Below are positions 33,731 through 39,064 of a stretch of DNA of 39,064 bases, one piece after another. This DNA comes from Hydrogenophaga sp. (GTDB taxonomy: Bacteria > Pseudomonadota > Gammaproteobacteria > Burkholderiales > Burkholderiaceae_C). The translations under genes were made by a program, and so were the position numbers. The notes under the pieces were generated by a model. That model saw only the letters and a program-made list of their open reading frames with translations, did no database searches and had not been told where the DNA came from. Location: assembly GCF_028698005.1 (NCBI RefSeq), contig NZ_JAQVEJ010000003.1:5006-44069 (forward strand), written 5' to 3'. Each line of letters starts with the position of its first letter. The first letter of the stretch is position 1.

Positions 33731-36700
33731 ATGCCTGCTGATGTGCCACCCCCGTCCCCCGGCGCCCGCGCCCAAGATGACGCCAGCCCGCCGGTGACCG
33801 GCAAACATGCCCAGGTGGCCGGAGAAGGGGTGGGCTTCATCCGCATCCGGGGTGCCCGCCAGCACAACCTCAAGAACCTCGACCTGGACATCCGCACCGG
33901 CGAGTTGACGGTGGTGACGGGCCCGAGCGGCTCGGGCAAATCGAGCCTGGTGTTCGACACCCTGTTCGCCGAGGGTCAGCGGCGCTATGTGGAGACCTTC
34001 AGCGCCTACGCGCGCCAGTTCCTGGACCGCATGGACAAGCCGGCCGTGGACCGCGTGGAAGGGGTGCCACCGGCCATCGCGATCGACCAGACCAACCCGG
34101 TGCGCTCTTCGCGCTCCACGGTCGGCACGATGACCGAGTTGAACGATCACCTGAAGCTGCTGTTTGCGCGCGGTGCCCGGTTGTTCGACCGCGACACTGC
34201 CCTGCCGGTGCGGCACGACTCGCCCGAGACGATCTGCGCCGAGCTGCAGCGGCGGGCGGCTGAGCAGGGGGACCCCAGGCTGGTCGTGACCTTCCCGGTC
34301 GAACTGCCGGCCAGCGCCACGCCCGAGGAGGTCGAACAATGGCTCTCGGCCAGCGGCTACACGCGCGTGCAGGCCGAGCGCATTGTGCGGCGTGAGGCGC
34401 AGACCGTCGAGGCGCAGCCGGCGAAAGGCCGCAAGGCCAAGCCGGTGCCCGCGCAGGAGGTTCGTGTGCTTGATGTGGTGGCTGACCGATTCCGCCTGTC
34501 GAGCGCCGAGCCGGCGCGCGTGATGGAGGCGATCGAGGTCGGCCTCAAGCGTGGCAGCGGCAAGCTGATGGTGTACGCGCTGCGCGAGGAGGGCGAGCCC
34601 GACATCTGGCGTTTTTCGACGGGCCTGCATTGCCCCGAGAGCGACATCCGCTACGCCGACCCGGTGCCGTCGATGTTCTCGTTCAACTCGGCAGTGGGTG
34701 CCTGTGAGGCCTGCCGGGGGTTTGGCCGGGTCATCGGCGTCGATTACGGGCTGGTGATCCCGGACGAGCGACTGAGTCTGCGCAACGGGGCGGTGAAGGT
34801 GTTCCAGACGCCGGCCTGGAAGGAGTGCCAGGACGACCTGATGCGGCACGCCGAGGCGGCGGGCATTCCGCGTGATACGCCGTGGAACAAGCTGACGCCC
34901 GAGCAGCAGCACTGGGTGAAGTCCGGCTCGCCGAACTGGAACGGCAAGTGGAACCAGCAGTGGTACGGCATCGCCCGCTTCTTCGAGTACCTGGAGAGCA
35001 AGGCGTACAAGATGCACATCCGGGTGCTGCTGTCCAAGTACCGCAGTTACACCGAGTGTCCGGTGTGCGCGGGCGCACGGCTCAAGGGCGACAGCCTGCT
35101 GTGGCGCATCGGCACCAAGGCCCAGGCCGACGCCGTGCTGCCACCGGAGCGTCGCCACATGCCGCAGGGCGTGGCATGGACGCGCGCGCGGCTGGAGGCG
35201 CTGCCCGGCCTGTGCCTGCACGACCTGATGCTGATGCCGTTGTCGGATCTGCGGCGGTTTTTTGATTCGCTGACCGATTCCCTGGCACTGGCGAGGTCCG
35301 ATTCACCGGGGGGTGAGCCGTATGAGGAACCCGGCGTGAGCCCTGCCGGACCAGCGAGTCCCCAGGAGCCTGCCAGGCCCACTGGCGAACAGCAGGCCCT
35401 CAAGCTGCTGTTCGACGAAATCAACACCCGCCTGCGCTACCTCTGCGAGGTCGGCATCGGCTACCTCACGCTGGATCGCCAGAGCCGCACCCTCAGCGGC
35501 GGCGAAGTGCAGCGCATCAACCTGACCACCGCGCTCGGCACCTCGCTGGTCAACACCCTGTTCGTGCTCGACGAGCCCAGCATCGGCCTGCACCCGCGCG
35601 ACATGGCGCGCATCAACGACGCCATGCTGCGCCTGCGTGACGCCGGCAACACCCTGGTGGTGGTCGAACACGACCCGGCCGTCATGCTCGCTGCCGACCG
35701 TCTCATCGACATGGGGCCCGGCCCCGGCGAGCGCGGCGGACAGATCGTGTTCGACGGCACGCCCGCAGCCATCCGCCAGGCCGACACCCTCACCGGCGCC
35801 TACCTCGGCGCGCGCAAGCAGGTCGGCATGGGTTTCAAGCGCATGGTCACCGACAGCACGCCGCGCCTCATCCTCGAAGGCGCGCGCGAGCACAACCTGC
35901 AGCACATCGACGTCGAGATCCCGCTGCAGCGCCTGGTCGTCGTCACCGGCGTCTCGGGCTCGGGCAAGTCCACGCTGATCCAGGATGTGCTGGCGCCCGC
36001 TTTGCTGCGTCACTTCGGCAAGGCCACCGAGTCGCCAGGCGCGCACGACCGCCTGCTGGGTGCCGATCACCTGAGTGACGTGGTCTATGTCGACCAGTCA
36101 CCCATCGGCAAGACGGCACGCTCCAATCCGGTCAGCTACGTTGGCGCCTGGGATGCGATCCGTGCCCTGTTCGCCGATGCGCCGCTGGCACGCCAGCGCG
36201 GCTACACCGCCGCCAAGTTCAGCTTCAACAGCGGTGACGGGCGCTGCCCGACCTGCGGCGGATCGGGTTTCGAGCACGTCGAGATGCAGTTCCTCTCCGA
36301 TGTGTACCTGCGCTGCCCCGACTGCGACGGCAAGCGCTACCGGGCCGAGGTGCTGGAGGTGCGCATCGAGCGCGGCGGCCGCCTCATGACGGTGGCCGAG
36401 GTGCTGGCGCTGACGGTGAGCGAGGCGGCGCAACTGTTCAAGGCCGACCGAGAGGTGATCCGCGCCCTGCAGCCGATCGTGGACGTGGGGCTGGAATACG
36501 TGCGCCTGGGCCAGCCGGTGCCCACGCTGTCCGGTGGCGAGGCACAGCGCCTGAAGCTTGCGGGTTTTCTGGCCGAGGCCGCCCGCAGCGCCGCCAAGGG
36601 GCCGCGCAGCCAGCCGCTGGCGCGCAAGGGCACGCTGTTCTTGTTCGACGAGCCGACCACCGGCCTGCATTTCGACGACATCGCCAAGCTGATGCGCTCC

Positions 36701-39064
36701 TTGCGCAAGCTGCTGGAGGCGGGCCATTCGCTGATCGTGATCGAGCACAACCTCGACGTGATCCGCAGCGCCGACTGGCTGATCGACCTCGGGCCCGAGG
36801 GTGGCTCGGGCGGCGGCCGCATCGTGGCCGAAGGGCCTCCCGAGGAGGTGCGCAAGCACCCCGCCAGCCACACGGCGCAGGCGCTGCGCGACTATGCGCA
36901 GGTGATGGGGGAGTCTTTGGTGGCGCGGGAGTCTGGGGCTTTGTCTTGGGTGCTCGCTGCCGGGGATGGGGGGCTGCCGGGCTCCTCATACGCTCTCGCC
37001 AAATCGTCGCCCGGCAGCCCCCCATCCCCGGCGAACCCTCGTCGATCCAACATCGCGGGCATGCCAGTGTCCGCCAAGGGGCGGGGGGCGCCGGGCGACG
37101 ATTTGGGCTTGCCGTATGAGGAGCCCGGCGCCCCCCGCCCCTTGGCAGCGCCTGCCCATAAAAACGCGATCCGCATCGTCAACGCCAAGGAACACAACCT
37201 CAAGAACCTCAGCGTCGACATCCCGCGCGGCCAGTTCAACGTCATCTCCGGCGTCAGCGGTTCGGGCAAGTCCACGCTGGCCTTCGACATTTTGTTCAAC
37301 GAAGGCCAGCGCCGCTACCTCGAAAGCCTCAACGCCTACGCGCGCTCCATCGTGCAGCCCGCCGGCCGGCCCGAGGTCGATGCGGTGTACGGCATCCCGC
37401 CCACCGTCGCCATCGAGCAGCGCCTGAGCCGCGGCGGCCGCAAATCGACCGTCGGCACCACCACGGAGGTCTGGCACTTCCTGCGCCTGCTCTACGTCAA
37501 GCTCGGCACCCAGCACTGCGTGCACGACGGTGCCGCCGTGCAGCCGCAAAGCCCCGACAGCATCGTCGCGGCCATTCTCACACGCTACCGCGGTCGCCAC
37601 ATCGGCCTGCTGGCGCCCCTGGTCGTCAACCGCAAGGGTGTCTATACGGAACTGGCCGACTGGGCGCGCCCGCGCGGCTACACGCATCTGCGCGTGGATG
37701 GCGAGTTTCTGCCGACCAGCGACTTCCCGCGTATCGACCGCTTCAAGGAACACACCATCGAGCTGCCCGTGGCCGACGGTCTGATCGACCCGGCCAACGA
37801 GGCCTGGCTGCGCGGCCAGCTTGCCAAGGCGCTGGAGATCGGCAAGGGCACGGTGCATGTGCTGGCCCCGCTCGACGGGTTGGCGCAGGCACTGGCCGAA
37901 GGCCGCTCGACCCAGGGCCTGGGGTCGCTGGAGGTGTTCTCCACCATGCGGGCCTGTCCCGCCTGCGGCACCAGCTACCCGGAGCTCGATCCGCGCCTGT
38001 TCTCCTACAACAGCAAGCACGGCTGGTGTCCGGACTGCGTGGGCACGGGCGTTCGGCTCACGCGCGAACAGCGCAAGGCACTCGACGATTCCGTGCGCGA
38101 TGACGACCAGCGCGGGCGCGAGCAGAGCTTCGCCGAGCCCGAGGTGGACGGCCTGGTGGACGAGGCGTGCCCCAGTTGCGCGGGTACGCGCCTGAACGCG
38201 CAGGCGCGGGCCGTGCGATTCGGCGGCACGTCGATCACCGACATCGCCCGCCTCTCGGTCAGCGAAGTCCGACAGTGGGTCCGCGCCATGATGGGTGTTG
38301 ACGGTGCGAATGACGATCCGGCGCCGGGCCGCCCCAAGCCGGATCAGCCCCCCCGGGGGGCAGCGACCCGCGAAGCGGCGGAGCGTGGGGGCAACGATCC
38401 GGCGCCGGGCCGCCCCCAGCCGGATCAGCCCCCCCGGGGGGCAGCGACCCGCGAAGCGGCGGAGCGTGGGGGCAACGATCCGGCGCCGGGCCGCCCCCAG
38501 CCGGATCAGCCCCCCCGGGGGGCAGCGACCCGCGTCAGCGGCGGAGCGTGGGGGCCTTTGTCCCGGCGCGAGGCCGATATCGCGCGCGACCTGCTGCCCG
38601 AGATCGAAAGCCGCCTGGCCTTCCTCGAAGACGTCGGGCTGGGTTACCTGACGCTGGACCGCGGCGCGCCGACCCTCTCGGGCGGCGAGGCGCAGCGCAT
38701 CCGGCTGGCGGCGCAGCTCGGCAGCCATCTGCAGGGTGTGTGCTACGTGCTGGACGAGCCGACCATCGGCCTGCATCCGCGCGACAACCAGATCCTGCTG
38801 GACGCCCTGCACAAGCTGGGCGACATGGGCAACACGCTGGTGGTGGTGGAGCACGACGAGGACACGATCCGCCGCGCCGACCACATCATCGACATCGGCC
38901 CGAGCGCGGGCAAGCGCGGCGGCCGCGTGGTGGCGCAGGGCTCGGTGGCCGACCTTTCGGCGTCCGCGGATTCGCTGACCGGGCGCTATCTGCTGCACGC
39001 GATGAAGCATCCGCTGCAGGCACGGCGGCCTGTCTTGGCTTCCTCTTCCGCAACGGGGGATGGG
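33731..39064 (+). CDS. uvrA: Giant tandem UvrA, excinuclease ABC subunit A (3' end beyond the window)
   Basis: The frame from ATG 33731 stays open to the right edge: 1,778 codons, no stop. It holds one full UvrA (residues 1 to about 1055) and most of a second. Half 1: Walker A at 64 (GPSGSGKSS) and 740 (GVSGSGKST), signatures SGGE at 589 and 934, Cys pairs 325/328 and 443/446, and the C-terminal zinc finger Cys839, 842, 862 and 865. Half 2: Walker A at 1174, a CPACG...CPDC finger and SGGE at 1650; its last ATPase domain lies outside. UvrA scans DNA for bulky damage and loads UvrB. Tandem UvrAs near 1,900 residues are known in Burkholderiales. Repeat-derived inserts interrupt it near residues 522-552, 1077-1139 and 1528-1609, all in frame. 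Confidence 0.93.
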   Translation, partial: MPADVPPPSPGARAQDDASPPVTGKHAQVAGEGVGFIRIRGARQHNLKNLDLDIRTGELTVVTGPSGSGKSSLVFDTLFAEGQRRYVETFSAYARQFLDRMDKPAVDRVEGVPPAIAIDQTNPVRSSRSTVGTMTELNDHLKLLFARGARLFDRDTALPVRHDSPETICAELQRRAAEQGDPRLVVTFPVELPASATPEEVEQWLSASGYTRVQAERIVRREAQTVEAQPAKGRKAKPVPAQEVRVLDVVADRFRLSSAEPARVMEAIEVGLKRGSGKLMVYALREEGEPDIWRFSTGLHCPESDIRYADPVPSMFSFNSAVGACEACRGFGRVIGVDYGLVIPDERLSLRNGAVKVFQTPAWKECQDDLMRHAEAAGIPRDTPWNKLTPEQQHWVKSGSPNWNGKWNQQWYGIARFFEYLESKAYKMHIRVLLSKYRSYTECPVCAGARLKGDSLLWRIGTKAQADAVLPPERRHMPQGVAWTRARLEALPGLCLHDLMLMPLSDLRRFFDSLTDSLALARSDSPGGEPYEEPGVSPAGPASPQEPARPTGEQQALKLLFDEINTRLRYLCEVGIGYLTLDRQSRTLSGGEVQRINLTTALGTSLVNTLFVLDEPSIGLHPRDMARINDAMLRLRDAGNTLVVVEHDPAVMLAADRLIDMGPGPGERGGQIVFDGTPAAIRQADTLTGAYLGARKQVGMGFKRMVTDSTPRLILEGAREHNLQHIDVEIPLQRLVVVTGVSGSGKSTLIQDVLAPALLRHFGKATESPGAHDRLLGADHLSDVVYVDQSPIGKTARSNPVSYVGAWDAIRALFADAPLARQRGYTAAKFSFNSGDGRCPTCGGSGFEHVEMQFLSDVYLRCPDCDGKRYRAEVLEVRIERGGRLMTVAEVLALTVSEAAQLFKADREVIRALQPIVDVGLEYVRLGQPVPTLSGGEAQRLKLAGFLAEAARSAAKGPRSQPLARKGTLFLFDEPTTGLHFDDIAKLMRSLRKLLEAGHSLIVIEHNLDVIRSADWLIDLGPEGGSGGGRIVAEGPPEEVRKHPASHTAQALRDYAQVMGESLVARESGALSWVLAAGDGGLPGSSYALAKSSPGSPPSPANPRRSNIAGMPVSAKGRGAPGDDLGLPYEEPGAPRPLAAPAHKNAIRIVNAKEHNLKNLSVDIPRGQFNVISGVSGSGKSTLAFDILFNEGQRRYLESLNAYARSIVQPAGRPEVDAVYGIPPTVAIEQRLSRGGRKSTVGTTTEVWHFLRLLYVKLGTQHCVHDGAAVQPQSPDSIVAAILTRYRGRHIGLLAPLVVNRKGVYTELADWARPRGYTHLRVDGEFLPTSDFPRIDRFKEHTIELPVADGLIDPANEAWLRGQLAKALEIGKGTVHVLAPLDGLAQALAEGRSTQGLGSLEVFSTMRACPACGTSYPELDPRLFSYNSKHGWCPDCVGTGVRLTREQRKALDDSVRDDDQRGREQSFAEPEVDGLVDEACPSCAGTRLNAQARAVRFGGTSITDIARLSVSEVRQWVRAMMGVDGANDDPAPGRPKPDQPPRGAATREAAERGGNDPAPGRPQPDQPPRGAATREAAERGGNDPAPGRPQPDQPPRGAATRVSGGAWGPLSRREADIARDLLPEIESRLAFLEDVGLGYLTLDRGAPTLSGGEAQRIRLAAQLGSHLQGVCYVLDEPTIGLHPRDNQILLDALHKLGDMGNTLVVVEHDEDTIRRADHIIDIGPSAGKRGGRVVAQGSVADLSASADSLTGRYLLHAMKHPLQARRPVLASSSATGDG
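35295..35352. repeat. Degenerate palindromic repeat inside uvrA, partial copy of the linker element
   Basis: Bases 35317-35336 match 37111-37130 at 19 of 20 positions, the right end of the loop and inner arm of the hairpin element at 37073-37146. Flanking GGTCCG (35295-35300) pairs with CGGACC (35347-35352), and TCACC/GGTGA forms an inner stem. It encodes the Pro/Gly/Glu-rich stretch around SPGGEPYEEPG, absent from ordinary UvrA, just before the conserved segment leading into the first SGGE signature. Confidence 0.6.
36959..37032 (-). repeat. 74-bp perfect hairpin element A in the UvrA inter-half linker
   Basis: Two perfectly complementary 24-bp arms, 36959-36982 and 37009-37032, flank a 26-base loop. 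Read on the minus strand the loop begins GACGATTTGG and ends GTATGAGGA, as in element B on the plus strand. Pairing stops exactly at the arm ends. The element is translated through in frame as part of a low-complexity linker (GLPGSSYALAKSSPGSP). Confidence 0.85.
37073..37146 (+). repeat. 74-bp perfect hairpin element B in the UvrA inter-half linker
   Basis: Arms 37073-37096 and 37123-37146 are perfectly complementary over 24 bp, with a 26-base loop (37097-37122) starting GACGATTTGG and ending GTATGAGGA. It is the same family as element A but inverted and 40 bp away. Arm sequences agree with A at 17 of 24 positions; all seven differences are matched on the opposite arm. It encodes GAPGDDLGLPYEEPGAP in the uvrA frame. 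Confidence 0.85.
38313..38555. repeat. Three tandem 81-bp GC-rich palindromic units inside uvrA
   Basis: Units are at 38313-38393, 38394-38474 and 38475-38555. Units 1 and 2 differ by one substitution. Unit 3 gains one base near its end (CGCGTCAGCGG for CGCGAAGCGG), which shifts its last codons but leaves the uvrA frame open. Each unit has GATCCGGC and GCCGGATC as inverted arms, then CCCCCCCGGGGGG and a GCAGCGACCCGCGAAGCGG segment ending GAGCGTGGGGGC. Each adds 27 residues. I recall very similar dispersed repeats in Comamonadaceae intergenic regions; this needs a search. Confidence 0.88.

Follow-up and report, generated by a model that had tools for sequence, protein, structure and literature searches.

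Paired palindromic hairpins with a conserved internal loop in the linker of a giant UvrA gene of Hydrogenophaga and in related bacteria

Known palindromic repeats and the hairpin pair of Hydrogenophaga

Repetitive extragenic palindromes (REPs), bacterial interspersed mosaic elements (BIMEs), and REP doublets forming hairpins (REPINs) are small palindromic repeats, often arranged as inverted pairs, that are found between genes and sometimes within them. According to the passages of the literature used here, a REP is recognized by TnpA-REP as a single-strand hairpin through a conserved mismatch zone in its stem (PMC8266576), and REPIN hairpins, which have a paired inverted arrangement, bear compensatory changes (PMC3116915). 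GTAG and CGTC repeats, with head-to-head pairs and intragenic copies in uvrA and uvrB, are treated in passages of Di Nocera et al. 2013 (PMC3733652), where some terminal inverted repeat (TIR) families of TIRYT transposases are also said to be self-complementary and to occur as close dimers. Here, we describe two hairpins, A and B, located in a DNA stretch of Hydrogenophaga sp. of 39,064 nt (as a whole, “the window”), within a giant, internally duplicated UvrA gene (Table 1). They are units of a palindromic element family that has so far been met almost only in the GTDB family of Hydrogenophaga. It can be viewed as a REP-like family of a new design, resembling REPs in layout and perhaps, by analogy, in the mode of recognition. 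We favor, with a probability of roughly 0.55, the reading that the element is conserved for its structure and that its folded loop strand is recognized in trans by a putative protein.

The first-pass annotation of this DNA had reported two inverted palindromes with perfect 24-bp arms and 26-nt loops, lying in a coding frame in a UvrA linker. Recomputed coordinates and complementarity agree with this description, and two pieces of the open reading frame (ORF) match UvrA domains (Pfam). The loop of A, read on the minus strand, is GACGATTTGG-CGAGAGC-GTATGAGGA, and that of B, on the plus strand, is GACGATTTGG-GCTTGCC-GTATGAGGA; the two are nearly identical once A is reversed, with the first 10 and the last 9 bases the same, as the annotation had said. 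In loop orientation, the 5′ arms of A and B differ at 7 of 24 positions, and each change is compensated, a count made by eye that reproduces the earlier one. The hairpins are inverted to each other and in frame in one ORF, where the plus strand encodes ..LPGSSYALAKSSPGS.. at A and ..APGDDLGLPYEEPGA.. at B. Among the 25 longest of 40 inverted repeats found in the window with arms no more than 150 nt apart, only these two are perfect over 24 bp. When the loop strands are folded as single-stranded DNA, z-scores of −7.6 (B) and −10.1 (A) are obtained, and none of 200 shuffles is as stable.

Table 1. Positions of the hairpins, their parts, and the surrounding gene in the window
Feature	Position	Strand	Description
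UvrA gene, giant and internally duplicated	33731..39064, open at window end	plus	the pair sits in the linker between two UvrA copies
Hairpin A	36959..37032	minus	perfect 24-bp arms, 26-nt core read antisense to uvrA
Arms of hairpin A	36959–36982 / 37009–37032		24 nt each, 100% complementary, 26 nt between
Core of hairpin A	36983..37008	minus	GACGATTT / apical region / ATGAGGA
Spacer between the divergent hairpins A and B	37033..37072	plus	40 nt
Hairpin B	37073..37146	plus	perfect 24-bp arms, 26-nt core read sense to uvrA
Arms of hairpin B	37073–37096 / 37123–37146		24 nt each, 100% complementary, 26 nt between
Core of hairpin B	37097..37122	plus	GACGATTT / apical GGCTTGCC region / ATGAGGA
Possible degenerate relative of a sense hairpin, first uvrA linker	35288..35349	plus	CGTATGAGGAACC, encodes GGEPYEEPG; weak match (22 bits, E 0.022)

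An exact loop scan over contigs of at least 3 kb from 84,980 species returned 20 stretches. Seven of them (Hydrogenophaga, a Comamonadaceae metagenome-assembled genome, and a beta-proteobacterium) hold 13 copies whose arms are paired yet different, making 15 with A and B. One more, from Roseateles aquatilis (Sphaerotilaceae in the NCBI taxonomy, with Hydrogenophaga in Comamonadaceae), has a shorter core with paired arms, and the other 12 have no arms and look like chance occurrences. A first covariance model, built from the 15 exact-pattern copies, found matches in 12 of 60 relatives and, within the own GTDB family, in at least 55 of 399 genomes and at least 27 of 141 genera. The best 150 of 159 matches were aligned, and merging of both-strand duplicates and overlapping loci left 122 places. 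A second model, R2, built from 114 copies, was positive in at least 5 of 399 genomes drawn from the order, all of them members of the own GTDB family; the family and order counts are lower bounds because 12 candidates were scored per genome. In the source genome, the loop is found only at the A/B locus even when 3 mismatches are allowed, and R2 matches just these two hairpins. Thus, the annotation was right in envisaging a dispersed element whose loop is conserved and whose arms co-vary: in other loci and genomes, the loop recurs with different yet paired arms, as it had proposed to check, but the source genome itself carries only two copies. Two exact core patterns (the Hydrogenophaga pattern not among them) had no match in viral contigs, a phage collection not being searched, and the one intergenic hairpin pair searched for in plasmids had none there.

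How the family relates to the described systems can be seen from its tags, stems, and copy numbers. The inverted pairing of units typical of REPs is present. The stem of about 24 bp is free in sequence, in contrast to 5–13 bp in the GTAG families (PMC3733652, in the part used), and the conserved part is the internal loop. R2 gives 2 to 26 matches per genome in 16 genomes already known to be positive, whereas REPs usually exceed 100 per genome (PMC2817692, as excerpted). Within 12 nt of the stem base of 121 copies, GTAG occurs twice on the 5′ side and once on the 3′ side, and CTAC twice on each. CGTC REPs and Rickettsia palindromic elements (RPE) are similar in being palindromic, in the predominance of head-to-head pairs, in having no dedicated transposase, and in having copies inside DNA-repair genes of other bacteria, including uvrA and uvrB; the CGTC families, however, as characterized in the same passages of PMC3733652, have stems of 8–9 bp, loops of 4–5 nt, and mostly CCA tails, and belong mostly to alpha-proteobacteria, all of which is unlike the hairpins. 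CGTC typically lies inside the hairpin core (on the reverse strand), while beside the stem base of the 121 copies CGTC was counted 6 times and GACG 10 times. The TIR repeats of TIRYT transposases form the inverted ends of Y1 genes, whereas the hairpins do not, as seen in Y1 neighborhoods, where the genes of two g112 genomes bear TTTAATTGGGGTCAGATCCCAATTAA instead. Since the family has no consistent tag and no Y1 transposase partner was found in the neighborhoods inspected (see below), it is not filed as REP. Whereas the short palindromic repeats described to date are largely constant in sequence, what stays constant here is the shape, together with the stem length and a short non-canonical core; the stem sequences turn over. 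In a full-text search of the open literature, we recognized no publication on the hairpin core, its peptides, or a similarly designed family. A table in Weinberg 2010 (PMC2864571) names a motif Burkholderiales-1 without an Rfam accession.

The conserved fold and the strand that carries it

Three parts make up the unit in the 122 places: a stem (about 24 bp), the G.A-rich internal loop GACGATTT//ATGAGGA, and an apical region; the core measures 23–35 nt. The apical part differs between genera and copies (CTGGTACCCCAG, CTGCTCGCAG, GGCTTGCC, GGCGTACCCCCGCC, and others) but is mostly paired despite its variable sequence. The loop had been taken as the conserved identity of the element; conserved it is, but as an internal loop with fixed or covarying opposites followed by a variable, paired apical stem rather than as an open loop. 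In 120 cores (two places with a shifted core register being left out), the opposites G.A, A.G, C-G, G.A, A.G, T.T, and T-A occur in 93 to 117 cases each. The variants are mostly two-sided (C-G in 116 cores with T-A in 3; G.A in 115 with A.C in 4), the combinations being GACGA/GAGGA in 84 cores, GCCGA/GAGGC in 8, and GGCGA/GAGCC in 3. Tandem G.A pairs stack in both DNA and RNA, and the internal loop could stack as the series of opposites listed above. The apical stem is often common to several copies of one genome or genus whose arms differ (e.g., in the genomes G139, G242, G225, and G321); most copies in G139 and G242 have CTGGTACYCCAG, and G321 and G441 have several kinds.

In the alignment of 114 copies (111 distinct), 97.1% of the stem cells are paired as against 59.0% in shuffles, and the covariation score is 0.930 compared with 0.197 for shuffled and at most 0.139 for slid controls. 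Two-sided changes are found at all 24 outer pairs, shuffles reaching 23 of 26 on the same measure. The 15 exact-pattern copies, aligned without a model, score 0.601 versus 0.148. Pairing (121 places) drops to 0.60 at position 25 and then to 0.11–0.37. The arms share a loose consensus between unrelated sites and turn over at one site between relatives. The family thus represents a natural covariation experiment for a structure read from a single strand.

It had been proposed that either the palindrome is selected or a template-switch process keeps rewriting one arm from the other. Template-switch (quasipalindrome) correction produces long, almost perfect arms that change in sequence without losing their pairing, with no need for structural selection, and it would account for the two-sided Watson–Crick changes, which make up 20 of the 57 cells that changed in 13 orthologous hairpins of G139 and G242, two species of one genus (12 taken from flank clusters and one, G139 2159082 with G242 230099, matched by position). 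Yet neither a cruciform nor a template-switch process distinguishes between the strands or senses which one carries the core, so equal numbers of G.T and A.C mispairs would be expected on the core strand. In the same orthologues, the one-sided changes from Watson–Crick pairs comprise 24 G.T, 1 A.C, and 7 others; among 2928 cells of the whole set, the loop strand carries 166 G.T, 22 A.C, and 74 other mispairs, while random re-pairing of arms from different copies gives 303 G.T to 216 A.C. Template switching also leaves unexplained the conserved covarying internal loop, the stem length, and the divergent pairing. The G.T excess therefore favors selection on a folded single strand, and we judge template switching unlikely. 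More generally, G.T versus A.C serves as a strand test that tells structure reading from template switching.

The ratio of G.T to A.C is 31:8 in the hairpins antisense to uvrA, 26:8 in the sense ones, and 108:6 elsewhere. Between near relatives in UvrA, in sets hand-picked from flank clusters and supplemented by a G302 copy that resembles them in core and arms, it is 17:2 (antisense) and 11:2 (sense), and copies found by DNA pattern alone give the small number of 14 to 3. In the 10 intergenic orthologues of G139 and G242, the mean identity is 0.88 for the arms and 0.98 for the core, as compared with 0.65 for the adjacent 60-nt flanks and 0.74 for the flank 60–200 nt out. Together with the one-sided changes, these identities indicate selection on the folded core strand at most of the fixed places compared.

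G-U tolerance is typical of RNA, and in a passage of Di Nocera et al. (PMC3733652), GT pairs serve as the argument for many REPs acting at the RNA level. It is therefore conceivable, though we lean against it, that the hairpins act when transcribed, as 3′-end stabilizers, terminators, or regulatory RNAs; intergenic copies lie between reading frames of various orientations, and some pairs between convergent frames would suit such a role. However, the loop strands of close pairs are opposite strands, and the hairpins antisense to uvrA show the same G.T excess on the strand that is not mRNA, including between near relatives. Nor does any Rfam family reach its gathering score in the window; a relaxed search (E up to 0.5) of 15 loci yielded 16 matches, all below that score, of which 15 hit microRNA models and one a Streptococcus small RNA, and these are chance-like hairpins. 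Since the core strands of a pair are opposite and in uvrA one of them is antisense to the gene, the simpler assumption is that the substrate is single-stranded DNA, although antisense transcripts may also account for the loop-strand effect.

Arrangement, gain and loss, and candidate partners

Among the 150 places listed for R2 in 16 genomes, on which the pair counts rest although more matches were found, 84 fall into 42 pairs whose members are separated by less than 400 nt. All 42 are divergent, the hairpin on the minus strand preceding the one on the plus strand as in A and B, and have spacers of 32 to 224 nt; the gap of 40 nt is also present in the flank-matched uvrA pairs of G225, G370, G428, and G110. 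In the earlier 122-place set, 34 of 35 close neighbors are divergent, the exception being a same-direction neighbor in G437. The face-to-face placement that the annotation had regarded as an oddity is, consequently, nearly the rule. A transposase enclosed by a long-gap pair was considered and rejected: the 835-bp pair in G441 surrounds a frame that, by eye and with no family search, we take to be superoxide dismutase-like.

Presence or absence of the hairpins could be followed at two sites. In the leucyl-tRNA synthetase (LeuRS) gene, G140 has a hairpin with 29 more codons, and G243 of the same genus has none. At the other site, G139 has 374 nt that include a whole pair, where 11 nt separate the flanks (about 90% identical) in G242; in G317 the interval is 162 nt, and its 8 R2 matches all lie on other contigs. 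Such differences, together with the paired inverted arrangement known for REPINs (PMC3116915, as excerpted), would be expected of inert, slowly decaying relics of a miniature transposable element (a REPIN or a TIRYT-type miniature inverted-repeat transposable element). But relics should decay like their surroundings, whereas in 9 of the 10 intergenic orthologues the arms score higher than the average of their two adjacent flanks, and flank-matched uvrA sites have kept the pairing across genera, which makes this explanation improbable. The same LeuRS site bears on the idea that the arms are made at insertion by inverted copying of the target flank and so reflect their own site, as would explain why they differ from copy to copy. 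The hairpin-free G243 stretch has no exact arm, and its best ungapped match to one arm, 17/24, is also the maximum of 200 shuffles (mean 14.4) and within reach of chance; a loose arm consensus between unrelated sites and the turnover of arms at one site are likewise at odds with such copying, which we consider very doubtful.

If the favored reading of a structure recognized in trans is correct, the unit would be a rod made of a free-sequence stem of about 24 bp, the conserved internal loop, and a short apical stem. The loop strand, once folded, would be recognized by the putative trans-acting protein, most simply in the form of single-stranded DNA and much as TnpA-REP reads a REP stem with its mismatch zone; the protein would either move the element or use it as a site. 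The long stem would hold the internal loop at a fixed distance; as such a spacer, it would be selected only for its pairing and length, according to our proposal. Coding copies would persist where the hydrophilic linker peptide is harmless, and this tolerance may explain the copies in the linkers of the giant UvrA. A parallel is offered by integron attC sites, which have variable arms, a conserved structure, and few conserved unpaired bases and are recognized as a folded single strand; the likeness is an analogy of recognition only.

Reading frames around 86 loci were clustered, and 34 clusters contain more than one genus. Ten of these comprise only UvrA-labelled loci; in 7 others, the sole additional locus is L039, itself a copy of the UvrA locus L027. 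The remaining 17 link two genera each, at the HrpA site or in the locus groups L063/L072, L064/L092/L115, L072/L107, and L085/L098.

Several observations weigh against the favored reading. The complementary strands fold nearly as well as the loop strands (z of −7.8 and −8.9), so the energy model alone gives no strand preference, and the strand argument from mispairs does not separate DNA from RNA. The alignment of 114 copies was fitted to a covariance model, such models carry an RNA prior favoring G-U, and the counts are drawn from related sequences and are not independent. At two orthologous places, selection is not apparent: the arms of G139 344886 (0.77) are kept no better than their flanks (0.85, 0.72), and those of the HrpA coding site (0.69) are below theirs (0.75, 0.73). 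As to mobility, which the annotation had assumed, the evidence from the two sites is indirect and gives no direction of change, and inspection by eye of the cleaner empty site (G139/G242) showed no target-site duplication. A match to a Y1 transposase is present in 19 of 20 genomes with or without hairpins, the source genome has no PF01797 match, and none of 14 Y1 neighborhoods (L120–L133, two of them cut by contig ends) holds an R1 match at E up to 1, other transposase classes not being searched. UvrA is the sole neighbor recurring in more than two genera (HrpA apart, the two-genus neighbors are not annotated), and retention at flank-matched sites across genera fits use by the host better than simple mobility.

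Such use can be formulated tentatively as a less probable alternative. The hairpins would be structured single-strand DNA sites employed by the host, where a protein reads the G.A-rich rod on an exposed strand. A divergent pair with one copy per strand would work whatever the direction of replication, and the giant UvrA, with up to three linker pairs, possibly uses them in its own reaction or expression.

A partner of the REP-type Y1 transposase class (RAYT), suggested by the annotation, was thus discarded, as its presence does not track the hairpins in the genomes tested and the 14 Y1 neighborhoods hold no hairpin; the nearest listed R2 match in G139 is about 3.9 kb from the Y1 gene. In L122 and L123 (g112 genomes), the Y1 genes are flanked by their own 26-bp inverted ends TTTAATTGGGGTCAGATCCCAATTAA, which are unlike the hairpin and fit the GGGGWSAS motif given for TIRYT genes in a passage of PMC3733652. 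G074, a genome without a hairpin match in the family survey, has twenty Y1 transposase matches, several of them equal-scoring.

UvrA linkers and other coding sites

UvrA is the commonest single host of the hairpins, with 49 of the 122 places: 28 antisense, 20 sense, and one (G008 58265) set apart from the strand counts because a wrong frame had been picked. UvrA-class hairpins are present in 23 of the 41 genomes of the set, the label resting on protein motifs in the relatives and on Pfam for the window gene only. The term “non-coding” used by the annotation hence suits many copies but not this host. In the own genus, the best match to the linker region of the window gene falls in an open frame of 1,300–2,200 aa in 19 of 22 genomes (the source included), and several genomes have a second match in a frame of about 1,000–1,100 aa. 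The linkers carry flank-matched antisense and sense hairpin sites across genera, with three pairs in G225 alone. If the favored reading holds, a selected nucleic-acid structure would lie inside the coding sequence of a repair gene, in up to three linkers and across genera.

The UvrA core lengths of 26, 32, or 35 keep the reading frame, and all 55 coding copies examined, from five kinds of genes, have one phase at the core 3′ end. The non-UvrA coding sites belong to NuoG-like, HrpA-like (DUF3418), MmeI-type methyltransferase, and leucyl-tRNA synthetase frames; out of 10 non-UvrA frames passed through Pfam, 5 are without a family and may be spurious. The constant phase and the preserved frame would be natural if the linker peptides encoded there (GSSYGKPKSSPG and GDDLGLPYEEPG) were the object of selection, with the hairpin as a by-product. 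However, selection on peptides in UvrA can give neither the pairing of free-sequence arms nor the non-UvrA copies with their G.T excess, and a fixed phase can equally be a filter for harmless peptides, so that this explanation is highly improbable.

The possible degenerate hairpin in the first uvrA linker of the window (Table 1) is near chance by its pattern alone, and relatives carry pairs at this linker. In linker 2, the insertion boundaries could not be placed because the linkers are too divergent. Right after the window end at 39064, there is a run of N followed by a repeated stretch (L023), at the position of the third UvrA linker; as this linker carries a hairpin pair in relatives, hairpins may have broken the source assembly. 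A palindrome-like insert of a different kind, with the peptide LPSWGRAGVG...PHPNPPPAGEG, occupies uvrA linker 2 in L150 (G007), which suggests that the UvrA linker may be a general landing place. Finally, positions 38313–38555 of the window, in the second UvrA half, hold three in-frame tandem copies of an 81-bp GC-rich unit (98% matches), perhaps another repeat settled in a UvrA loop.

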